Assembly (NCBI GenBank): GCA_016874915.1
Contig: VGSW01000013.1
Coordinates: 1 to 38,630 of the forward strand
From: Deltaproteobacteria bacterium
GTDB taxonomy: Bacteria; Desulfobacterota; Desulfobaccia; Desulfobaccales; 0-14-0-80-60-11
DNA length: 38,630 bases
Reading direction: 5' to 3'
Shown here one piece after another: positions 9,592 through 37,745 of this stretch. How positions within the stretch are numbered: the stretch's first letter is position 1; each line of letters begins with the position of its first letter. The position numbers were made by a program, and so were the translations under genes. The notes under the pieces are model-generated. The model was given only the letters and a program-made list of their open reading frames with translations. It did not search any database and was not told the DNA's origin.

Positions 9592-9821
9592 CCGATGGGG
9601 GAGAGGGTTAGGGTGAGGGGGAAGAAAAGTGCTTGCCACCTGAACTTCATGAATTCGCTGGCCAACAGGGATCAGGTCGATTTTCCGTTTGGTTGCGGCC
9701 CCAGGGCCGCGATGTGATTCTTCCGTGGATTTACCGGGGCTTTTGGGCTATGATGACAACGAAGGGCGTGTCCGCCCCAAGCCGAAGAAGCAGAGACTTC
9801 CGCAGAAAGGAGGATGGAGCC

Positions 9822-10103
9822 ATGGTGAAGGTGTTGCTGGAGAGGACCATCAAGGGCAAACAGGTAATGGAAATCGTCCGCCTCCTCAGGCAGATGCGGG
9901 TTCTGGCCATGCAGCAGCCGGGCTACATCTCCGGGGAGACCCTGCATGCGGTGGATGACCCTAACCATTATCTGGTGATCAGCACCTGGGAATCCCAAGA
10001 GCACTGGGAGGCCTGGTTCAACAACACGGAGCGTCAACGCCTGCAGGCGGAGGTGGACCGCCAATTGGAATCCCCCACATCCCTCCGGGTTTTCACCTAC
10101 TGA
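9822..10103 (+). CDS. Antibiotic-biosynthesis-monooxygenase (ABM) domain protein
   Basis: A 93-residue single-domain dimeric alpha+beta barrel protein of the ABM superfamily. The pattern GYISGETLHAVDDPNHYLVI, then STWESQEHWEAWFNN, is the typical ABM core. Members include haem-degrading and quinone-oxidising monooxygenases, and also proteins of unknown role. The ligand cannot be told from sequence. ATG 9822 is preceded by AGGAGG at 8-nt spacing. The open frame extends upstream to 9633 but that part is not conserved-looking. It is a single-gene unit with a terminator at 10142. An ABM protein beside redox genes could serve in oxidative-stress or quinone chemistry, which is inference. Confidence 0.85.
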   Translation: MVKVLLERTIKGKQVMEIVRLLRQMRVLAMQQPGYISGETLHAVDDPNHYLVISTWESQEHWEAWFNNTERQRLQAEVDRQLESPTSLRVFTY

Positions 10104-10141
10104 CCGCGCGCCGCATGGCATATGCCACCGAGGTTCGCCCA

Positions 10142-10168
10142 GGGGCGGCTCGCAGCCGCCCCTTCTTT
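10142..10168 (+). terminator. Rho-independent terminator after the ABM gene
   Basis: A 9-bp perfect stem GGGGCGGCT (10142-10150) with AGCCGCCCC (10154-10162), a 3-nt loop, and then TTCTTT. Confidence 0.85.
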
Positions 10169-10262
10169 GCTGTCCGGTAATGATTCATAACTTCATAACC
10201 GATCGGACATGATGCCGGTCATTCCAGGTCGCTCCCGCCTGCACCAGACGGGGTCACCGGCG

Positions 10263-11366
10263 TCAGGCGCCGCCGGTGGGGGCGGACGGGGTGGCCGCGG
10301 GCGGTTCCGGGGGACCCGGCTCCGAGGATGGATCGGCCAGGCAGTCCCGGCCCAGGAGCTTAACCTTGGAGGCCCCGACGACCATGGCGATGGCCAGCGT
10401 TTCCCGAAGCTCCTGGGGAGTGGCTCCCAGTTCCCTGGCAACTGCCAGGGAGCGTCGGATGCACGGTTCACAGCCCGCAGCCAGAGAGGCCCCCAGGGCG
10501 ATCAAGCGCTTGGTCTTGGCATCCAGGGCGCCGGCGGCGAAGGTCTGGGTGACAAATTCCTGATGGGACGGAAACGGATCGGACCGGGACATCTCCACCC
10601 CTTTCTCGGAAGCCGCAAGGGGCTTGTCTGCCGTAAATAACGCCCCTTCCGTGTAGGCTGAACTTTTAAAGCCGGTGAGGCGCACCAGTCTCCCCCGGAC
10701 GAAGCCGGCGGTGTGCATGAGGGCCAGGAAGTCCCTTCCCGGCAGGGCCCCGCCGATTCACCGGTGCCAGTTGTCCAGACGATCCGCCTGTTCGGGGGGC
10801 AGCGGCCTCACCAGGACCATGTCCGCCAGCAGGAGCCGGCCCCCCGGTTTCAGGACCCGATAGGCCTCTCTGAGGGCTTTTTCCTTGTCCACGGTCAGGT
10901 TGTAGACGCCGTTGCTGAGGACCACGTCGGCCCAGGCGTCGGGCACCGGCAGGGCTTCGGCCTCCCCTGCCAGGAAGCGCACCCGGCCGGCCGCCAGAGC
11001 GGCTTGGTGGGCCTGGGCCCGGCCGACCATTTCGGGGGAGAGGTCCACGCCCACCACCTCCCCCTCGGACCCCGCCAGCCGGGCGGCCACCAGAGCGTCG
11101 AAGCCGGCGCCGCAGCCCACATCCACCACCTTTTCCCCGGGGTGAATCTGGCCCAGGGAAAAAGGGTTTCCCACGCCGCAGAAGCTGTTGAGGACCTCCG
11201 CGGGGAAATCCTGCCACCACTCCTCCTCGTAGCCCAAGGCGCGTATGCCCTCAACCCCGGTGGGATATTGGAAACATCCGGCGGGCGTGACGGCCACCCG
11301 GGCATATTTTTCCAGGATTTTTTCCCTGACGAGCTGCCGGTCCAGGTTGCTCAACGCTGCAGTCAT
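10263..11366 (-). CDS. Selenoprotein: ArsM-like methyltransferase fused to AhpD-like CMD domain (in-frame TGA = Sec203)
   Basis: Read through one TGA (10760-10758), the frame encodes 367 residues. Residues 1-240 are an arsenite-methyltransferase-like SAM enzyme: SFCGVGNP at 61-68 (compare the ArsM Cys-GNP motif), SAM motif VVDVGCGAG at 80-88 and LKPGGRLLLADM at 172-183. The sequence then reads DNWHR-U-IGGALPG, so the TGA sits where ArsM has its conserved Cys in a W..CxxGAL context. The frame after TGA continues with typical ArsM C-terminal sequence (TAGF, TGFKSSAYTEGALFTADKP), then from about 260 a carboxymuconolactone decarboxylase/AhpD-like domain with CxxC at 299-302 (AAGCEPCIRRSL). A SECIS-like hairpin follows the TGA. 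Start ATG 11366 has AGGAGGGCGG upstream. The predicted role is SAM-dependent methylation of arsenite or another thiol-bound metalloid, with a fused thiol-redox domain. The substrate is inferred. A standard call gives two fragments, 10758-11366 and 10263-10592 (ATG with AAAGGGGTGGAG). Confidence 0.85.
10723..10760 (-). promoter_or_regulatory. SECIS-like element and UGA-Sec codon of the ArsM-CMD gene
   Basis: TGA is at 10760-10758. A 9-bp stem, GCCGGGAAG with CTTCCTGGC (10743-10735 with 10731-10723, one G-U pair), encloses a GGA loop. The loop begins 24 nt after the TGA. This fits the bacterial SECIS rules (apical loop 16-37 nt downstream, G among its first two bases). Confidence 0.75.
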
Positions 11367-11442
11367 AGCCGCCCTCCTGCCAGGCGTCCCTCCCCGCCTT
11401 GTTTCAGTGTTTCCTGCCGGACTCATTCCTGTGCAAGGACGG

Positions 11443-11475
11443 AAAAAGCCCGGTGAAGCGGACTCCACCGGGCTT
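11443..11475 (-). terminator. Rho-independent terminator between the two selenoprotein genes
   Basis: A 10-bp stem AAGCCCGGTG/CACCGGGCTT (11475-11466 with 11455-11446), read on the minus strand and ending in a T run. It lies 27 nt past the stop of the HdrD-like gene, so the ArsM-CMD gene is either separately transcribed or reached by read-through. Confidence 0.8.
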
Positions 11476-11501
11476 GGAGTGCTCAGATCACCGGAACAGA
11501 C

Positions 11502-12854
11502 TCACTCTTCTTCCTCGAATTCGATGCCGTCCCGCTCGAACTGGGCGTCCCTGAGGGCGTGGGCTTTCTCGATTTCCTCTTCGCTCCAGGGTTCGATGAC
11601 CAGGGTGTTGGCCACCAACTCCCAGAGGTAGACCGTTTCCTTGTAGTTGCCCATGTCGAAGCCTTCCCGGCCCTTATTGAACTCGCCGGCCAGACCTTTC
11701 ATGATCTGGTCCCGGCAGTTGTGGCAGGGGGCCATGACCACTTCCGCGCCTGTGTCCCGGATCTGGTCGGCCTTGGCCTTACCGTAAGCCAGACGCTCCT
11801 CGTCGTAGGGCATGGCCCAGGCACCGCCGCCGGCGCCGCAGCAGTGGTTGTTCAGGGGGTCGTCGCACATCTCCCGGAAGAGGGAGGGATCGACGCACTG
11901 CTTGGTGAGCCAACGGTTGAGTTCGGCCATGTGATCCCCAAAGGAAATTTGGGACTTGCGCCCATAATTGCAAGGGTCATGGACCGTGATGGTGTGGTGG
12001 TTGACCGAGGGGTCGAGCTTGATCCGGCCCTCGTCGATGTACTCTTTCAGGAGCTCCTGGATGCTGACCACCTTGAACTCGTCGAACACTTCGGGAAACC
12101 AATTTTTGAACCCGCCCCGGGTTGCAAAGTAGGCGTGCCCTCATTCCGGGTACAAGATGGTTTTCACCTTAAGTCGTCGGGCGTTCTCGATGATCCGGCG
12201 CACCTGCTCCTTCCAGGCCGGGTCGTCGCCGGAGAACAGACCCCAGTTGACCCCTTCCCAGTTTACCGACGACACGGTCCAGTCCTCTTTGGCGGCGTAG
12301 AAAATCTTCCACCAGAACTTCATGTCGTCCGGTTCGGCAAAGGGTTCCTTGCTGTTAATGGTGACGATGATGTTGGCCCCTTCCTTGTCCACCGGCACAT
12401 AGAACCCAGGGCAGCACTCATCTTCCACTTCCTTGCCCAGGTCGGCCAGGAGAAAGAGGAAGTCATCCCTGGGGATGCCCAGGTTGTTGCCCCGTTCCAG
12501 GTTCATCATGGTGCCCTTGTGGATGGGGCCGGGCACCTTGCCCCGCTCCCGGGCGGTGCGGCAGGCCCGGAAGGTCTTCATGAGTTGAATGCCCATGGGG
12601 CATTGATACTGGCAGCGGCCGCACAGGGTGCAGACCCACGGCCACTTGGAGTCCACCACCTCTTGCTCCATGCCGAAAACAATGGCCCGGATGGCCTTCC
12701 GGGGATCCCAGGCGCCTTCGCCGCCTTCCACGGGGACGAGTCCTGAGGCCGGACATCCGCCCCCGCAGGTGCCGCAGGTATAGCATCGGTCCGCCATATC
12801 GGGAGTAATCCCGATTTTGCGGTGCTTGCGGTCAACCTTGATCGCCTCTTCCAT
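11502..12854 (-). CDS. Selenoprotein: HdrD/DsrK/TmcB-like iron-sulfur protein (in-frame TGA = Sec238)
   Basis: Read through TGA 12143-12141 the frame encodes 450 residues. Two [4Fe-4S] sites appear at C24/C27/C30/C34 (CYTCGTCGGGC) and C75/C78/C81/C85 (CTLCGRCQYQC). The first CCG-type domain ends in LYPE-U-GHAYFATRGG, where relatives carry Cys (ECGHA). The second CCG domain is complete: C295, C338-C339 and C377xxC380 (HDPCNYGR, NHCCGAGGG, APCHNC). Proteins of this family pass electrons between disulfide/thiol pairs and membrane or cytoplasmic donors in sulfate reducers and methanogens. ATG 12854 is chosen because GGAGG lies 8 nt before it. The upstream ATG 12890 lacks a site. A SECIS-like hairpin follows the TGA. 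No membrane partner gene (HdrE/DsrM type) is adjacent. A standard call would give two pieces, 12141-12890 and 11502-12089. Confidence 0.88.
12105..12143 (-). promoter_or_regulatory. SECIS-like element and UGA-Sec codon of the HdrD-like gene
   Basis: TGA is at 12143-12141. The stem TTTG-(bulged C)-AACCC pairs with GGGTT-CAAA around a 5-nt loop GGGGC (12128-12105 on the minus strand). The loop begins 23 nt after the TGA and starts with G, matching bacterial SECIS rules and the spacing seen in the neighbouring gene. Confidence 0.7.
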
Positions 12855-12996
12855 GTAATTTTCCTCCATGCGCGGCCCTTGGCGGGCCATTTTGCCAGGT
12901 TCACCTCAGTGGCTGCGCCATGAATTTTCTTGCACCTAGCTTCTTATATAACAAATATTTGCCAAAAATAAACGTACCTTTTTCCGGAACAGTTCG

Positions 12997-13199: not shown

Positions 13200-14399
13200 A
13201 TGCCTGACGCAGCCCACCTCCCGGCCCGCCTGGACGCTCTGCGGGAATTGAGCCGGCGACTGGCGGCCCGGCGGGACGATCTGGTCGCCGCCGCGGGCGA
13301 GGATACGGGCGCCCCCTGCCGCATCGCCGGCATTGAAGTGGACCTGGCCGTGGAGCACCTGGCCGGCATGGAGGAGGAGGCCCCCCTGGTGGCGGGGACC
13401 TCCCCCTATGGCGCCGTGGCCGCCATCTTCCCCTATGACGCGGTGCCGGTGATGCTGGCCCGGGTGGGCGGCGCGGCGCTCTTGGGGGGGAACCGCTTCC
13501 GCTTCAACTGCTCCTCCCAGACCCCCCGCACCGCCGCGGTGGTCCGGGAAATCGTCGCTCCCTTCCCGGAATTGGAAACCCCGCCGGCGGGGACGGACAA
13601 CCGCACCTTCGGCCGGGCCTGCGTCCGGGATCCGGCGGTGCGGGTCTTTTTCATCTCCGGGGGCGGCGAGGTGGGGGCGGTCTATGCCCGGGAAGCCGCC
13701 CACTTCGACAAGATTTTCTTCGCCGGCCCCAGCGGCCTGCCGCCGGTGATCTTCTGCCGCGACGCCCCGCTGGAGGCCGCCGTGCCCTTTCTGGTGCGCC
13801 GGGCCTTCCTCAACGGCGGCCAATACTGCACCTGTCCCAAGCGGGTCTACCTGCACCGGGACCTCTACGACGAAGCCCGGGACCGCATCCTGGCCATGAT
13901 GCCGGAGATCCGGGTGGGGGACCCGGCGGACCCCACCACCTGGATCGGCCCCATCCGGGTGGAGCGCACCCGCAAGCTTCTGAAGCAGGCCCTGGAACTC
14001 CTGAAGGATGCCCGCTTTCTCCTGCCGCCCCGACGGGACGGGGTCTGGCAGGGTCCCTTCCTGGTGGAGACCGCGGACCCTCCCGAGATGGAATTGTTCG
14101 GCCCCTTCCTGGCCCTGGTGCGGGTGGCCGACGATGAGGAGGCGGTGGCCCGGGTCCTGGCCGGCCGCTATCCCTTCGCGGTGGTCACCTTCGGCGCCCT
14201 GCCCGCCGGCGCCCGGGAGCGCCTGGCCGCGGCCTTCGGCATGACCTACCACGACCCCGACTTCCTCTTCACGCCGCTGCGCCTGCCCTTCGGCGGCCGC
14301 AAACGGAGCGGCTGGATCCTGGAGTGGCGCCAGGGCAAACTGCGCCGCCGGGACGGGGCCTTCAGCTACACCGCCGAACTGGTCCGGAGCGAGAAATAA
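13200..14399 (+). CDS. Aldehyde dehydrogenase family protein, divergent, lacking the usual Glu
   Basis: A 399-residue protein, shorter than usual ALDHs (about 450-500), with the ALDH fold visible: SPYGAVAAIFPYD at 68-80, the Cys loop FLNGGQYCTCPKRVYL with catalytic C210, and LFGPFLALVRVADDEEA near 300. The motif that normally carries the general-base Glu (ELGG) reads GPSGLPPVIF at 176-185, so Glu is replaced by S178. The C-terminal FGGRKRSG is typical. It may be a CoA-acylating or otherwise altered enzyme, or a non-classical member; the substrate is unknown. The start ATG 13200 has only a weak ribosome site. Its last 19 coding bases recur at 14762-14780, bracketing a repeat cluster that separates it from the DUF169 gene. 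Confidence 0.8.
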   Translation: MPDAAHLPARLDALRELSRRLAARRDDLVAAAGEDTGAPCRIAGIEVDLAVEHLAGMEEEAPLVAGTSPYGAVAAIFPYDAVPVMLARVGGAALLGGNRFRFNCSSQTPRTAAVVREIVAPFPELETPPAGTDNRTFGRACVRDPAVRVFFISGGGEVGAVYAREAAHFDKIFFAGPSGLPPVIFCRDAPLEAAVPFLVRRAFLNGGQYCTCPKRVYLHRDLYDEARDRILAMMPEIRVGDPADPTTWIGPIRVERTRKLLKQALELLKDARFLLPPRRDGVWQGPFLVETADPPEMELFGPFLALVRVADDEEAVARVLAGRYPFAVVTFGALPAGARERLAAAFGMTYHDPDFLFTPLRLPFGGRKRSGWILEWRQGKLRRRDGAFSYTAELVRSEK

Positions 14400-15735: not shown

Positions 15736-15804
15736 ATGGCCGGGGACGGCGGCGGGCGGGGCCTTAACCCCCCGGCCCCTCCGGCCCTCGGCGAGGAGGT
15801 TCCC

Positions 15805-17109
15805 ATGGTCCGCAGTTTCTGGCATCGGCGCATCGGCAGACGGCGGTTTCTGGCTGAATCAGCCGCCGCGGGGTTGCTCCTCTCCCTGCCCCGGGGTCAG
15901 ACGGAGGCCGCCCCACCACCCAGTATCCTCTATCATGTCATGAATATCCCCAGCCATCCTTTTACCAGCCCCTCCCACCCCAACGAACACGCCGGCGTCA
16001 ACGCCCTCCTGGAACTCATGGGCCAACACGGGGATAAGTTGTATCGCTCCGAGAGCGTCGGGCCGCTGTCCGGACCGTGGGGCTTCATCGCCGCCGACGA
16101 CGTGGTGGTCATCAAGGTCAACGCCCAGTGGAAGTACCGGGGCTGCACCAACAGCGACGTCATCCGGGGGCTCATCCAGAAGATTCTGGACCACCCCGAC
16201 GGCTTTTCAGGCGAGGTGGTGATCTTCGGGAACGGCCAGGGCTGGGGCAGCCTGAATTGTGACAGCGATCCGGATGGCCATTATGGTGATACCACCCAGC
16301 ACGCCAACGCCAACGACGAGAGCCACAGTTTCCTGTACCTGGTGGACACCGTGTTCCGGGACAGCCGGGTGACCGCCTTCCTGATGGACCCGCATGTCGG
16401 GACCTTTATCGGACTGGGGGATCACACCTCTCACGGCTTCCGCATCATTCTGGACCCCTCTGGACGGGATACCATCTCCTACCCCTGTTTCACCACCGCG
16501 GGTGGGCGCCGGGTGGAACTGAAGCAGGGTATCTGGACGGGAACGGCTTACAGCCAGAACCTGAAACTCATCAACGTGCCGGTCCTCAAGCACCATTGGG
16601 GCGCCAAGGTCACCGCTTCCCTGAAGCACATGTACGGCATCCTGTCCATGCGGGATGGGAACTATTTCCGTCGGCATTTTGATGATCTGGGGAGGCAATG
16701 CGGCCTGATGATGGCGACCGTCAAAACCCCGGTGCTCAATATCGTGGACGCCATCTGGGTCTCCCACGGGTCCCTTTTCGGCTATCCGCCCGAAACCACC
16801 ACCCGGGTCAACCAGCTCCTGGCCAGCCAGGACCCGGTGGCGCTGGACTATTGGGCCGCCAAATATATCCTGTATCCCATCGATAAAAATCCTCAGCACC
16901 ATCCGGACTTCGCCGGGGTGGACGCCTGGCTCACCTCCGCCCGGGACCTCATCAACGCCCGGGGCGGGCTCTGGGACCCGGATAACGCCATCTATCAGGG
17001 AAACGTGACGAAGAACGAAAAGTCCATGCTGGTGCGCACCCGGAATATGGCGCCATTCCGTCCCATTGCACCCGTTCCATCCTTCCTGGAACTCCTGCTG
17101 CATGATTGA
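15805..17109 (+). CDS. Tat-exported DUF362-domain protein
   Basis: A 434-residue protein beginning with a twin-arginine signal: RRIGRRRFLAESAAAGLLLSL, with cleavage probably near residue 35. The mature part matches the DUF362 family (VVIKVNAQWKYRGCTNSDVI, LKLINVPVLKHHWGAKVTAS, and the C-terminal SQDPVALDYWAAKYIL). No ferredoxin-type cysteine cluster is present, unlike some DUF362 proteins. ATG 15805 is chosen for GAGGAGG 6 nt upstream and because the Tat motif starts right after; the open frame from 15736 adds low-complexity sequence. Export in folded form suggests a cofactor-bearing periplasmic protein; the role is unknown. Two strong hairpins follow the stop. Confidence 0.85.
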   Translation: MVRSFWHRRIGRRRFLAESAAAGLLLSLPRGQTEAAPPPSILYHVMNIPSHPFTSPSHPNEHAGVNALLELMGQHGDKLYRSESVGPLSGPWGFIAADDVVVIKVNAQWKYRGCTNSDVIRGLIQKILDHPDGFSGEVVIFGNGQGWGSLNCDSDPDGHYGDTTQHANANDESHSFLYLVDTVFRDSRVTAFLMDPHVGTFIGLGDHTSHGFRIILDPSGRDTISYPCFTTAGGRRVELKQGIWTGTAYSQNLKLINVPVLKHHWGAKVTASLKHMYGILSMRDGNYFRRHFDDLGRQCGLMMATVKTPVLNIVDAIWVSHGSLFGYPPETTTRVNQLLASQDPVALDYWAAKYILYPIDKNPQHHPDFAGVDAWLTSARDLINARGGLWDPDNAIYQGNVTKNEKSMLVRTRNMAPFRPIAPVPSFLELLLHD

Positions 17110-29385: not shown

Positions 29386-30062
29386 GAAATCATCCAGACC
29401 GTTGCACCGAGGTTATTGGCTCGATCAAAAACATCTGACGCTGTCGACCATCCAGCCGTTCGTTCAATGCCGTCTGAACGTCTCTCATTAGGCACAAAGG
29501 CAAGATATCGGACATCACCAGATGGATAGAATTCTATCCAGAAAATTTGTTTTTCTGAACATTCCCATATCGCTTTCACATTTCCTCTATCTGTTACCAC
29601 AATGCTTGGTTCCCGCAAGCCTATATGCCCCATAAGAAAAAGTAAGAACTGCTTTAATGAAAACGATGAAAGCGGCTGTTCATCAGATTCTAATTCTTTT
29701 TGGAATGATAAAATCTCCCCCAATCTGTAAGCCGTGTATTCGAACCCGGCAAGCCGCGCAATCGCGATAGCTTCTTTGATACCAAATTCCTCAAGCGATT
29801 CTAAAAATTCAATTTCGACCTGTGGGTTAAGAAGCAGTGTTTCTTGCCTTTGTCCTTCGCACGTTTCCTCTGGTATGGATAGTTTTTTTATTGCGGGGAG
29901 AATTTTATCAAATGAGGCTGCGGATGGCTCAGTCTTAAATCGTGCATCTCGAAACTGATTGAAAGCTTTAACTTTTCCCCTACGCTCACGCTGCGACCAG
30001 TAACCTGTAGAAACAGAATCGTATGCAGTTCCATCTTGTTCATGTATTGCTGTATTCCACAT
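29382..30062 (-). CDS. Unknown protein, second gene of the three-gene cassette
   Basis: 226 residues, not recognised. N-terminal HEQDGTAYDSVSTGYWSQRE, a helical middle (IEFLESLEEFGIKEAIAIARL, with LKQFLLFLMGHIGL) and a C-terminal strand-rich part (IVVTDRGNVKAIWE, then FWIEFYPSGDVRYLAFVP), which resembles the small sensor-like fold seen in some toxin-antitoxin partners; that comparison is only an impression. No known catalytic motif. The ATG (30062) abuts the stop of the first gene (TAA-ATG), with GGAGAA upstream. Part of one transcript. Confidence 0.7.
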   Translation of the reverse strand: MWNTAIHEQDGTAYDSVSTGYWSQRERRGKVKAFNQFRDARFKTEPSAASFDKILPAIKKLSIPEETCEGQRQETLLLNPQVEIEFLESLEEFGIKEAIAIARLAGFEYTAYRLGEILSFQKELESDEQPLSSFSLKQFLLFLMGHIGLREPSIVVTDRGNVKAIWECSEKQIFWIEFYPSGDVRYLAFVPNERRSDGIERTAGWSTASDVFDRANNLGATVWMIS

Positions 30063-30710
30063 TTAATTATGTTCTCCAAGCAATATAGGAATAATTTGAA
30101 CAAGGCACTTTTCCCTATTTTTCCATTCCTTCATGATGGTTTCAATTTGCTCCGGCGTGAAGGGTCCATCATAGTGATAGTTAGCGTTAATTATTACTGC
30201 AGGATAATATTCTCTGCCAGGAATTTTAGCTTTGCCGGGTGAGAAATTTAAGTTGCAAAGGGTGTCTTTCATCTTGAAAGAAAGCTTGACGGAGGACTGC
30301 ATCGGTTTCGCTCCGCTTTCTTTCCAAGCCTCGGGTCTCACAAATCTATCTGTGATAAACATACCCGGTTCAGCCATCTCCGCGGAAATATGCCAGTTCA
30401 GCCCTACAGAGGTGTAAGAGACATGGGGGAGAACTTTTGCATAACGGACGGCAAAATTGTGAACATCGTAATTATCCTGGAATGAGGCGGCGCATTCTTT
30501 CCTAATCTCAAGCCGTTCCTGGTCCAGCAGGAAAACCACGCCTGCGGGATACCTCACGGTAGCAAATGCAGGAGTGGTCAATATCTCGTTAGCTTCCCAA
30601 TCCGAGGAAACTATGTCATTTATCCTCAGAAAATCAGGATTTAATATGGATGGGTTATGAGACTTGGCGAGGATGACGACATTCACCCAGTGCAGGACCA
30701 AAGGCAGCAT
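30063..30710 (-). CDS. Unknown protein, first gene of the three-gene cassette
   Basis: 215 residues, not recognised. Short hydrophobic start (LPLVLHWVNVVILAKSHNPS), then a strand-rich domain: ILTTPAFATVRYPAGVVFLL, YDVHNFAVRYAKVLPHVSY, VGLNWHISAEM. The C-terminus carries charged helices (FTPEQIETIMKEWKNREKC). No membrane segment long enough, no Cys motif. Start uncertain: ATG 30710 lacks a good ribosome site and a GTG at 30686 is an alternative. An AT-rich, gene-free 457-bp region precedes it and may carry the promoter. Confidence 0.65.
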   Translation of the reverse strand: MLPLVLHWVNVVILAKSHNPSILNPDFLRINDIVSSDWEANEILTTPAFATVRYPAGVVFLLDQERLEIRKECAASFQDNYDVHNFAVRYAKVLPHVSYTSVGLNWHISAEMAEPGMFITDRFVRPEAWKESGAKPMQSSVKLSFKMKDTLCNLNFSPGKAKIPGREYYPAVIINANYHYDGPFTPEQIETIMKEWKNREKCLVQIIPILLGEHN

Positions 30711-31167
30711 ATGAGAAATGGTAACCTTATCAGAAAGTTAGTTCATTTATATTCATCTAGCTTCGGGCAAGATAAGCAAGGCCACCCGATTCGGGAAGAC
30801 CCGATATGCAGACTTAATCGAATTATAATCCAAGCCTCAAAAAAATCAATGTCTCAATCTCTCCCGCCGGGTCAATCGGCAAACAATTTCAGCATCCTGG
30901 TCGCAATTGGTGCTGGCCATCTAGATTTTCCTGACATGCGCTGGGTAATTCGAAATTCTGCACATAAGAACCCGGTTACAGAATATTCCGGCCCCCTGTT
31001 TATTCTCCCACCCCTTTTGGTCCGGATTTGTTTAAAAATCTTAAAGTTGTGTTGAGCCCGGCATAAAACTGCTTTCCGATATTTAAGATATTGATTTTTT
31101 TACACATGTGCAAACCTAGTGGATTTTCCGGGGGTTCCATGTTTAGGGGGCTGAACAACGGGGGCCT
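30711..31167. other. AT-rich gene-free region upstream of the three-gene cassette
   Basis: No convincing gene. AT-rich like the cassette, in contrast to the GC-rich PilZ gene beyond 31168, so the right edge of the probable acquired segment lies near 31100-31160. On the minus strand GAATATAAAT near 30755 could be a -10 region. Confidence 0.45.
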
Positions 31168-31599
31168 TCACCCTTCGGGAGGAGAGGGTTCATCGAAACA
31201 AAGGCCGTCCCGGAACCACAGGGCCACGCCCCCCAGGCCGCGGGGGCCGGTGGGGGGGTCCAGGCGCACCACCTCCCCCCGGGCCTTGAGCAGAGGGGTG
31301 TCGTGGTGATGCAGCTGAGGCAGGGGCAAGGTGATGACCAGGTCCACCACTTGGCCGTAGTGGAAGGAGTTGGGAAAAGGGCAGAGGAGGCTCAGCCCCT
31401 CCAGTCCCAGGTCCCGGGTGACCGCCTCGCCTTCCAGGAGGTCTCCGGTGGCCCCGCACCTGGTCTGAAAAGCCACCGCAAGGGGGAGATAAAACCGTGC
31501 AAAGCGACGTCTTTCCTGGACTTCCACGGGCCTGCCTCCTTGCCGACGCCGACTGATGGGCGTTTCCTTCAGAGCAGCCCCGGCTTCCTGCCTCCACAT
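31168..31599 (-). CDS. PilZ-domain protein (c-di-GMP binding)
   Basis: 143 residues. The PilZ signature is seen as RRRFARF (RxxxR) near residue 30 and DLGLEGLSL ([D/N]xSxxG-like, with Gly at the Ser position) near 63. The strands VDLVITLPLP and ARGEVVRLDPP complete the barrel, and GGVALWF is the usual closing strand. Binds cyclic di-GMP if functional; the Ser-to-Gly change in the second motif makes that less sure. The first ~25 residues (before RRRFARF) are unconserved, so translation may begin later. Divergent from parA. Confidence 0.75.
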   Translation of the reverse strand: MWRQEAGAALKETPISRRRQGGRPVEVQERRRFARFYLPLAVAFQTRCGATGDLLEGEAVTRDLGLEGLSLLCPFPNSFHYGQVVDLVITLPLPQLHHHDTPLLKARGEVVRLDPPTGPRGLGGVALWFRDGLCFDEPSPPEG

Positions 31600-31729
31600 G
31601 CAGTTCTCATGCCATCCGCAATGGGAGCGGGCTGAGTCGGGGGTGGCTGAGATAATCCTTGACGCCTGACCCTCTTTCCATTATCATTTCGAAAAAATTG
31701 ACAAAATCACCCAGGACCGCCTGACCTGC

Positions 31730-32548
31730 ATGAGCACCGTCGTCGCCATCATCAACCAGAAGGGAGGCACCGGCAAGACCACCACCGCCATCAATCTGAG
31801 CGCCGGGCTGGCCTATCAGGGTTACCGCACCCTGGTGGTGGACCTGGACCCCCAGGGCCACACCACCATCGGCCTGGGGGTGGAGCCCGACTCCTTCCAG
31901 GAATGCATGGCCGAGGTGCTGAGCGTGCCCCGCAAGCGCATTGCCGAGGTCATAGTCGCCACCTACATTCCGGGGCTCTATCTGGCCCCGTCCCACATCC
32001 GTCTGGCCCGGGCCGCGGAGCAGTGCTACACCCGGGTCTTCCGGGAAATGATCCTGGCCCAGTCCCTGGAGGGGCTGGAGTTCGACTTCGTGCTCATCGA
32101 CTGCCCGCCGTCCCTGGGGGTGCTCACCACCAACTCCCTGTTCAGCTGCTCCTTCATTATCATCCCCTGCCAGATCTCCCGCTATTCCCTGGACGGTCTG
32201 GCGGACCTGCTCACCACCGTGGAAACCGTGAAAAACCTGAGCCCCGAAGAGCTATTCGAGCAGGACCTCTTCCGCATCCTGCTCACCACCTACGACCGGC
32301 GCAACCGGGTGACCAATGAGTACATTTTGGAGCAGCTCAAACCTTATCGGGATAAGACCTTCGCCACCTTCATCATGAAGAACGAAGCTTTGAATCAGGC
32401 GCAGATCGCCCAGAAAGCCATTTTCGACTACGACCCCAGGAGTTCCGGGGCCCATGATTACCGCCAGCTCACTACCGAGTTTCTGGAAATATGTCAAAGA
32501 AAAAACAACTTACCGGGAAAAAGACCAAGCTGGCAAAGCTTCCTCTAA
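31730..32548 (+). CDS. ParA/Soj-family ATPase (orphan)
   Basis: 272 residues. Deviant Walker A NQKGGTGKTTTAINL at 9-23 with the signature Lys, Walker A' VVDLDPQGHTTIGLG, Walker B FVLIDCPPSLG. Such ATPases position chromosomes, plasmids or protein arrays. No ParB gene or clear parS lies nearby, so this is not the main chromosomal pair. It resembles the orphan ParAs that place chemosensory or flagellar complexes or serve unknown cargo. ATG 31730; TTGACA at 31698-31703 may be a -35. Its 3' end overlaps the next gene by 58 bp, suggesting that protein is its partner. Confidence 0.9.
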   Translation: MSTVVAIINQKGGTGKTTTAINLSAGLAYQGYRTLVVDLDPQGHTTIGLGVEPDSFQECMAEVLSVPRKRIAEVIVATYIPGLYLAPSHIRLARAAEQCYTRVFREMILAQSLEGLEFDFVLIDCPPSLGVLTTNSLFSCSFIIIPCQISRYSLDGLADLLTTVETVKNLSPEELFEQDLFRILLTTYDRRNRVTNEYILEQLKPYRDKTFATFIMKNEALNQAQIAQKAIFDYDPRSSGAHDYRQLTTEFLEICQRKNNLPGKRPSWQSFL

Positions 32549-32880
32549 CCAAGGCGCTGACCCAGCAGATGGCGGAGGAGGGCTCCTGGGAGCCGGCGTC
32601 CGAGGCTGAGGCGCCGGCCGTGGAGAACTCCACCCGGCAGCTGCCCCTCTCCTGGGAGCGGGTGGAAGAGGGGGCGGCGGGACTTCTGGCCGCCACCTAT
32701 CTCCTCCTCATCCAGGAACTCCAGGCTCTGAGGAGCGATTTCCCCTGGGCCACCGACCCGGTCGCCCCCTTTACCCCCGCCCCCCTGCCCGCCGAGCTGC
32801 CTTCCGCGCGTCGGCTCAAGCGGGCTTTGAGCCAGGTCCGGGACGACCTGACCGAGCTCTCCCGCCTCCTGGCCCTCTGA
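32491..32880 (+). CDS. Unknown protein overlapping parA, possible ParA partner
   Basis: 129 residues, not recognised. Lys-rich start (MSKKKQLTGKKTKLAKLPL), an acidic/Pro-rich linker, helix VEEGAAGLLAATYLLLIQELQALR, a Pro-rich loop, and a basic helix ARRLKRALSQVRDDLTELSRLL. A basic N-terminus is a usual way to stimulate ParA ATPase, so it may be the cargo adaptor. Starts 58 bp inside parA in another frame, without a strong ribosome site. The translation is plausible but coding status depends on conservation. Confidence 0.6.
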   Translation: MSKKKQLTGKKTKLAKLPLTKALTQQMAEEGSWEPASEAEAPAVENSTRQLPLSWERVEEGAAGLLAATYLLLIQELQALRSDFPWATDPVAPFTPAPLPAELPSARRLKRALSQVRDDLTELSRLLAL

Positions 32881-33114
32881 CGAAGCCGGCGGTTCCACTT
32901 CCTGAGGAGGGGGCCCAGGGCCAGAGACGGCTGCGCCACGGAGGCCTCGCCCCTCCGGTTATCCTCCGGCAAACCCAGAGGTGTCCGGCACGATTTTTGC
33001 CTACAATCAATCTCTGACAAGGATATTGCCTTCCAGCCTTAATGTTTCGCCCCTGAGAGAAAAGGAGGCGCAGATCAAAAAGGCCTCCGGACATGGAATA
33101 GCCTTCATCTCCGG

Positions 33115-33450
33115 CTCCCTCCCCCTTGATGGGGGAGGGCTGGGGTGGGGGTGGCGACATTTTTCATAATGACGAGGAGTTGTCTGATTCCCCCCCTCCA
33201 CCAACCCCCTCCCACCGTGGGCATTGGCGCTAACTTAAGCAAGCAGTGGGTATGCCAAGGGTAACCTGTTGAACAGTCAAGATAAATCCCCCCTTACCCC
33301 CCTTTGCCAAAGGGGGGAATGAGCAGTCGGTGACCCGAAGTCCCCCTTTGGAAAAGGAAGATTTAGGGGGATTTTAAGTATAATCGGTATGTTATGATGT
33401 AAACTGGTTTTTTCTTAAGTTAGCGCCAATGCCCACCGTGGGGAGGGGGC
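33115..33450. repeat. Triple-nested repeat: C-rich MITE interrupted by a GCATTGGCGC MITE that holds a third repeat
   Basis: The outer C-rich inverted repeat (33115-33158 and 33189-33220, resuming at 33433) matches the arms of the 5053-5210 element. Within it sits a 212-bp element, 33221-33432, with perfect 19-bp ends GCATTGGCGCTAACTTAAG and perfect 9-bp flanking duplications CCACCGTGG (33212-33220, 33433-33441). Inside that lies a third inverted repeat, about 33284-33375 (AAATCCCCCCTTACCCCCC ... TTTAGGGGGATTT). The rest of the 32881-33825 interval has no gene. Confidence 0.8.
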
Positions 33451-33779
33451 CTAAAAACCACGTTCATGCAAAATCCTTACCGGGCAGGCTTGCGGCAAAC
33501 CTTTTTTATGTGTTACGGGTGCGCCGTCGGCCCGGGCGCGACTGTCCTGAAAAGGTAAATTTCCCCCCAAACTCTGCCGGAGGACCTCACCGCCCCGCCG
33601 CCCTGCCCTCACCTTACGCAGCGGTCCTGCGGCCCAGCGGAGTCTGGACACCGGAAAAAGGCTGACACCCTGCGCCACCTGAATTTACCCTGAATGTCCG
33701 CATGGGCCGCCGGTTAATCCGCGCCTGACCTGAAAATTGATGACGGGGAAGGGCCCGACGCCGGGGCCGGCCCATCCGG

Positions 33780-33825: not shown

Positions 33826-33923
33826 GGAAGTGCCAGGCTCACTGGTGGGGCCCCCGGACTTCAAATCCGGTGTGCTGTCTGAGGAAGGCGGCAGGTGGGT
33901 TCGATTCCCATGCACTTCCGCCA
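33826..33923 (+). tRNA. selC: tRNA-Sec (TCA), selC
   Basis: A 98-nt tRNA with the features of selenocysteine tRNA: 8-bp acceptor GGAAGTGC/GCACTTCC, anticodon stem CCGGA/TCCGG around CTTCAAA with anticodon TCA (33861-33863), a long variable arm (about 33871-33894), a T arm with TTCGATT, discriminator G and encoded CCA. It reads UGA as selenocysteine and so supports the two UGA-containing genes at 10263-12854. A Rho-independent terminator follows at 33998. Confidence 0.95.
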
Positions 33924-37657: not shown

Positions 37658-37745
37658 ACAGAAAGAGCTTGGAATCTTGCAGAGCTTTTAAAAAAACCGC
37701 CGCCCTTTCCCAGGACAAAGGGAGAATTTTGCAGGAGGCTCATGA
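37658..37745 (-). repeat. Inverted half-copy of the 14403-14489 repeat
   Basis: Reverse-complement match of about 87 bp to 14403-14489, with scattered mismatches; the shared core is CCGCCGCCCTTTCCCAGGAC then AAAGGGAGAATTTTGCA. It starts 29 bp after the restriction-modification gene. A short ACCTGAA repeat follows at 37781-37799. Confidence 0.75.

Follow-up and report, generated by a model that had tools for sequence, protein, structure and literature searches.

A predicted selenoprotein of the catalogued NF041537 family joining an SNG-class methyltransferase to a CMD domain

The gene, its neighbors and its contig

The gene lies on the minus strand of a contig from a Deltaproteobacteria metagenome assembly (GCA_016874915.1, contig VGSW01000013.1; assembly G000), of which a stretch of 38,630 nucleotides, referred to as the window, was analyzed (Table 1). 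The preliminary description had joined two apparent open reading frames into one, and they were found to form a single minus-strand frame from ATG 11366 to TGA 10265-10263, the sole break of which is TGA 10760-10758. Translation through this codon gave the expected read-through peptide, ...RLDNWHRUIGGALPGRDF..., and a match to PF02627 placed an AhpD-like CMD domain with a CxxC motif on the same chain as the methyltransferase, as had also been proposed. The start at ATG 11366 is backed by the match to the family model NF041537, which begins there; GTG 11468, the start of the mechanically called ORF, sits within a terminator-like hairpin that was absent from a hairpin scan with a loop limit of 8.

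Table 1. Positions of the gene, its parts and related features in the window
Feature	Position	Strand	Basis
Complete gene of the selenoprotein (370 codons and a stop codon)	10254..11366	-	Family match starting at ATG 11366; tail layout as in relatives
Start ATG 11366, end TGA 10256-10254, with Sec203 and probable Sec368		-	Family match; tail layout of relatives
SAM methyltransferase part, SNG class (FCGVGNP, LSNGVYNL, TGFKSS)	10599..11366	-	NF047649 covering product residues 1-256; Pfam Methyltransf_31/11/25; partition of the aligned rows by motif
Sec203 codon TGA (WHR-U-IGGAL), aligned with CmArsM Cys224	10758..10760	-	Translation and alignment
SECIS hairpin 1: 9-bp stem with a GGA loop, its G lying +24/+25 past the TGA	10723..10743	-	Fold, recoding test and covariation
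CMD (AhpD-like) domain, C299-E-P-C302, without His after CxxC	10368..10556	-	PF02627, 54.6 bits; alignments to 1vke and 5dik
TGC (Cys302) with retained SECIS-like hairpin (10430-10453)	10430..10463	-	Comparison with L003, L005 and L047; folds
TGA originally given as the stop; probable Sec368 codon of a GGA-U-R-R-stop tail	10263..10265	-	Tail layout of relatives; RNAalifold
Probable true stop TGA	10254..10256	-	Tail layout of relatives
Tail SECIS hairpin: 8 bp, G at +19	10234..10252	-	Fold and RNAalifold
Terminator-like hairpin (loop 10) ahead of a T run, located between the methyltransferase gene and its upstream neighbor	11446..11475	-	Read from the sequence
Upstream neighbor, HmcF/DsrK/TmcB-like Fe-S protein, with in-frame TGA 12143-12141 (ILYPE-U-GHAY)	11502..12890	-	Profile matches
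selC, tRNA-Sec (UCA)	33826..33923	+	tRNA-Sec search

The neighboring genes in the window encode an aldehyde dehydrogenase, the likely Fe-S selenoprotein and an ABM domain protein, and none of them points to metals. The Fe-S protein scored 180.5, 149.5 and 146.9 bits against the HmcF, DsrK and TmcB models, each below the respective cut-off, and its gene likely encodes a selenoprotein as well. The UGH motif at its TGA is listed in a 2026 review (PMC13188914), and the same TGA was found in a relative (L076), near that relative's own SNG methyltransferase. The hairpin of the upstream gene was equaled in stability by 21% of synonymous recodings, and the Sec assignment there thus rests on homology and on L076 and not on the hairpin. 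An aldehyde dehydrogenase-like gene near an SNG methyltransferase was seen in the window (13200-14399) and at L073 (5390-6679), L079 (5125-6309) and L076 (10289-11470), by a scan for the first three and by eye for L076. Genes with a metal or redox link lie near a few other relatives, namely MerR-family and ArsR/SmtB regulators (L074), an ArsR regulator (L077), a thioredoxin-reductase-like protein with a weakly matching HUIPC thioredoxin-like protein (L071) and a heavy-metal P-type ATPase (L072), and may be taken as tentative support for a soft metal(loid) as the substrate. Matches of neighbors that fell below the NCBIfam cut-offs were MerR (140.9), thioredoxin reductase (323.3), HUIPC (59.5) and MtaA-like (149.3).

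Window positions 12-22630 differ from contig 47 of a second assembly (G309; 22,619 bases) at two bases, neither of them in the gene, and this segment together with 30000-33346 is 99.99-100% identical to G309 contigs. G309 is a metagenome-assembled genome assigned to another genus of the same family. G000 has a contamination of 5.15% and holds two selC copies, the one in the window and another at L084, which are near-identical with three differences inside the gene and both have a UCA anticodon. The two selC copies, the contamination and the near-identity to G309 together suggest that the contig may be mis-binned, one bin probably holding a foreign contig; a very recent transfer is the less likely alternative. 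selB was found in both candidate hosts (selA, selD and tRNA-Sec were searched in G000 only), and the Sec reading is therefore independent of which of them owns the contig. Carriage on a plasmid was considered and rejected, as positions 9600-12900 had no match in a plasmid collection. Two other segments of the window recur: an intergenic stretch with inverted repeats (33115-33488) in many relatives, at 73-97% identity among the matches listed, and 37661-37740, which turns up again in G308 and, within the window, around 14.4 kb.

The TGA at residue 203 and the selenocysteine machinery

The methyltransferase part was aligned in 62 rows, comprising the window, 49 loci and 12 further regions, which are best matches and no random sample. 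The 49 loci are the best matches from a family search that covered 297 genomes from the phylum and 22 from the family, and the 12 regions include every remaining row with an in-frame TGA among the matches listed; the window's own copy (L004), a near-identical copy (L046) and two matches below 60 bits (L059 and L060) were dropped. Among these matches, 30 rows combined an SNG motif with TGA at the site of residue 203, one combined SNG with TGC, 21 combined SNC with TGC or TGT, and ten combined SNC with TGA. The only SNG row among the matches listed without TGA, L102, is distant and has TGC. Sec203 aligns with Cys224 of CmArsM, in keeping with the earlier proposal that the TGA occupies the conserved cysteine of ArsM, and the Cys-bearing homologs spanning the site that this proposal called for were found, since all 21 ArsM rows without TGA there, among the matches listed, have TGC or TGT.

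The hairpin reported downstream of the TGA was recovered as GCCGGGAAG-GGA-CUUCCUGGC, with nine base pairs, the first loop G at +24 and a stability of -13.5 kcal/mol. This stability was reached by 13 of 2000 synonymous recodings and, in two weaker controls, by 9.7% of 300 dinucleotide shuffles and by the hairpins at 8 of the 77 Cys codons examined across 15 other window genes. Covariation was examined in 25 distinct sequences, which represent 26 rows of the 30 that combine SNG with TGA (L011 is identical to L009); L015, L016, L019 and L021, in which the hairpin is in another register, were omitted, so the result holds for the remaining rows only. The helix was paired in 95.1% of cells, against at most 66.2% for slid partners. 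Double-change cells numbered 15 against 4.2 in shuffles, and the covariation score was 0.178 against 0.082, neither value being attained in any of 500 shuffles. The double changes occurred at three of the nine pairs, a number attained by 8 of 500 shuffles, and the closing pair was A-U in 12 sequences, G-C in ten, C-G in one and unpaired in two. Five of the nine pairs were invariant, the outer pair was broken in 9 of the 25 sequences, and the count of pair types was not above that in shuffles (277 of 500). An earlier count with 23 sequences, which also left out L054 and L056, gave the same picture. The hairpin thus covaries among the relatives counted, which bears out the SECIS assignment.

The preliminary description had named a TGG or TGC in place of the TGA on resequencing as a refutation; the second deposited assembly also reads TGA, which supports the base to that extent. 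A nonsense mutation at TGA 10760, in a pseudogene or through a sequencing error, might be considered for a metagenome assembly with contamination of the order found here, but it is extremely improbable given that the TGA is identical across the two assemblies and present in 30 of 31 SNG-motif rows among the matches listed, and that the SECIS covaries. A pseudogene or frameshift was rejected on the recurrence of the TGA in these rows and in the second assembly.

A search for tRNA-Sec confirmed selC in the window, and the check for the remaining genes that had been suggested found all of them in the assembly, with scores of 623.9 bits for selA, 352.2 bits for selB and 380.5 bits for selD, the last of which has an in-frame TGA of its own. 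The features that mark a bacterial selenoprotein, i.e., a conserved TGA, a SECIS and selA/B/C/D, are all present, and selenium incorporation is predicted. The family match, the conserved TGA, the SECIS and the Sec machinery together indicate, with high confidence for a sequence-based assignment, that the locus encodes a selenoprotein.

Family membership, the middle site and the tail

The protein matched NF041537, "arsenite methyltransferase/AhpD domain selenoprotein" (ArsM_AhpD_UU), at 598.6 bits, above the cut-off of 510, and over model positions 1-345 of 345. It shares with this family the domain order, the full-length match and the Sec at the UxxG of the methyltransferase (TGA 10760), whereas the CxxU in the AhpD domain is replaced by CEPC (TGC 10463) and the 345-position model stops short of the probable tail Sec. 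The score lies above the curated cut-off in spite of the Cys at the CxxU site, and the selenoprotein belongs to this already catalogued family. The fusion, which had been presented as unusual, is of a known kind: the review (PMC13188914) lists NF041537 in a table, with UxxG, CxxU and three Sec, and credits Haft and Tolstoy 2025 (PMC12013261) as the source. The GGA-TGA-Arg-Arg-stop tail of the window protein with its hairpin is a candidate for the site of the third Sec that this table counts. A search of open-licence literature, covering titles and the starts of abstracts, returned no paper on the family besides this review.

Two related families share the methyltransferase part. NF047649 (MTase_UXPK_star double selenoprotein) has, by its name, a UXX-star tail, but it lacks the CMD domain, and the window protein scored 373.4 bits, below its cut-off of 460. 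NF041536 (ArsM_DUF2284_UU) has the same methyltransferase class with Sec203, but a C-terminal DUF2284 replaces the CMD domain, and L006 and L007 carry three further TGAs in repeats. In these two loci (L006 1501-3048, L007 1501-3036) the SNG methyltransferase with DUF2284 has its extra TGAs in PGG[GT]-U-P[TS] repeats, and behind each repeat lies a SECIS-like hairpin whose G is at +24 or +24/25, for a total of four predicted Sec; in L007 a further TGA stands two codons ahead of the last stop. The review gives two Sec for the ArsM_DUF2284_UU family, against the four in L006 and L007.

All three other AhpD-fused relatives that were read (L003, L005 and L047) have GC[ED]P-TGA in the CMD domain, and the window has GCEP-TGC there, with the first base at 10463 and a Cys in the CxxU position of the family. 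The hairpin at this TGC has 9 bp with G at +19 and shares its core with that of L047. Its stability was equaled in 6.75% of 2000 synonymous recodings and at 3 of 77 Cys codons in 15 window genes. These data are suggestive of a Sec-to-Cys replacement that would have kept its SECIS-like hairpin. Reading of TGC 10463 by a tRNA-Sec with a Cys anticodon was rejected, because both tRNA-Sec matches above the cut-off in the assembly have UCA, and the codon is most likely plain Cys. AhpD peroxidase uses CxxC plus a proton-relay His. The CMD domain has the CxxC in common with the AhpD/CMD proteins 1vke and 5dik, whereas Ser takes the place of the His that follows it (CEPCIRRS versus CPGCIGFH), so that the CxxC of the peroxidase is there and its His is not.

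The product was originally taken to end at 10263, with 367 residues, and this end is probably not the true one, since TGA 10265-10263 is likely to encode a second Sec. The tail of the window reads GGA-TGA-CGC-CGG-TGA, and the hairpin starts one base past that last stop, which is the layout of L063 and L047; the final stop is likewise TGA in L049 and L054. A tail of this kind, with a TGA and then a stop after two to four residues, was found in 15 of the 29 other TGA-bearing SNG rows among the matches listed (e.g., GGTUKPK, GGAUAPK, GSTUPR and GGTUPR); L007 and L021, in which a single residue separates the TGA from the stop, do not enter this count. Folding of 14 of 16 tails with RNAalifold (L005 and L056 omitted) gave a 7-bp helix with at least one compensatory change per pair.

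The TGA may instead be an ordinary stop, leaving Sec203 as the single Sec, the tail Sec having been lost like the middle one. The tail is missing in 14 of the 29 relatives among the matches listed, including the nearest row in the tree (L048), and the hairpin is unexceptional by itself: its stability was matched by 6.7% of 300 shuffles and by 3 of 34 non-Sec TGA-ending ORFs, from a control of 39 mechanically called ORFs, some of which are antisense non-genes and five of which are Sec sites of the class. An ordinary stop is nonetheless unlikely given the layout shared with L063 and L047 and the final TGA of L049 and L054. Elsewhere in the window, an ORF at 15736-17109 (+) ends in a TGA with a strong hairpin behind it (-16.5; G at +24/25), and the frame stays open there for 35 codons; this hairpin may be a terminator.

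Relation to ArsM and proposed function

In a study on CmArsM (PMC3877260), Cys72, Cys174 and Cys224 are the As ligands, the C174A and C224A mutants are inactive, and C174A is inactive on iAs and MMA alike; a survey of ArsM required of every sequence it admitted that three or more of the four cysteines 44, 72, 174 and 224 be present (PMC5552862). The window protein has Val65, Gly153 and Sec203 at positions 72, 174 and 224. Val or Ile at 72 with Gly at 174 was found in all 30 TGA-bearing SNG rows, and Cys at both positions in all 31 SNC rows, among the matches listed. Two residues away from the lost ligand is Cys63 of FCGVGNP, which is shared by 28 of the 30 TGA-bearing SNG rows among these matches. 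Against the ArsM model NF008823, the cut-off of which is 263, the window protein scored 192.9 bits; the six SNG proteins examined scored 185.7-209.9 and the six SNC proteins 312.4-370.9, each six coming from 31 rows.

The protein shares with ArsM, including its Sec form, the methyltransferase domain, the SAM motifs and the conserved Cys or Sec at 224, but ArsM rows retain Cys72 and Cys174. An arsenite methyltransferase in the mechanistic sense, which an ArsM-type assignment would imply, is not borne out, and the family's name is unsupported as a statement of function because two of the three As ligands are gone and the score is below the ArsM cut-off. Arsenite, methylated along the known three-thiolate route, is probably not its substrate. 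A three-ligand As(III) site, and thus a true arsenite methyltransferase, might still be remade from Sec203 and Cys63 with either the tail Sec or Cys85 of DVGCGAG as the third ligand. Among solved relatives, ArsM structures have the best scores (5evj, 6.8e-28), curators have so named the family, and ArsR-type regulators lie near L074 and L077; against this stand the residues at 72 and 174 in all 30 rows, the inactivity of CmArsM C174A and the separation of the SNG and SNC scores by the ArsM cut-off, and we regard such a rebuilt arsenic site as rather improbable.

In the tree, the midpoint root of which serves only for drawing, a single clade (99/97) held 28 of the 30 TGA-bearing SNG rows; L019 and L021 fell outside it, and all 30 formed one group in just 4% of bootstrap trees. 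Ten rows (L092-L101) have TGA at 224 with Cys72 and Cys174 retained; these Sec-containing true ArsM formed a separate clade (99/95) inside ArsM. These placements indicate that Sec occurs at the site in at least two backgrounds, only one of which has the arsenic ligands.

We consider it reasonably probable that the gene encodes one 370-residue NF041537 selenoprotein, in which a Sec203 methyltransferase is joined to a CMD CxxC and a Sec-Arg-Arg tail, and that this protein methylates a soft metal(loid) other than arsenite. What the sequence itself shows is homology that spans the TGA, a conserved TGA, covarying SECIS hairpins, the Sec machinery and the lack of the ArsM ligands at 72 and 174. The predicted architecture comprises a presumed active-site Sec203, a CMD CxxC with Cys at the family's middle Sec site, and a Gly/Pro-rich tail ending in Sec-Arg-Arg. 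A single-sequence fold of the read-through protein gave no usable structure (mean pLDDT 38), and hence no geometry stands behind this arrangement of Sec, Cys and tail.

In the proposed mechanism, the methyl group of SAM would be transferred to a soft metal(loid) or organo-element bound by Sec203, with Cys63 of FCGVGNP probably helping to hold the substrate and the tail selenol doing so in turn. The CMD CxxC and the tail would then reduce an oxidized selenol or deliver the substrate. In thioredoxin reductase, a selenol tail shuttles electrons, and the redox role suggested for the CMD domain and tail may be likened to it. Recycling of a selenenyl-sulfide by the CMD CxxC, as was originally put forward, is a plausible, putative form of this role.

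A broader reading, which we advance tentatively, is that the SNG-class selenoproteins are no arsenite methyltransferases but a separate selenium-dependent methyltransferase family for another soft element or organometal (e.g., two-coordinate Hg, or else Sb, Te or Se). Of the ArsM ligands only Sec203 would then survive, and a mobile selenol arm would make up for the absent ligand or provide electrons; this arm would be carried on the tail alone, on a CMD domain or on a DUF2284 domain with three more Sec.

The analysis confirms as one Sec gene what mechanical ORF calling had split in two, and probably extends it beyond its reported stop. The existence of two Sec groups, one with the arsenic ligands and one without, suggests that the name "arsenite methyltransferase" may cover proteins of other function; if so, this would bear on surveys of arsenic methylation that count such genes.
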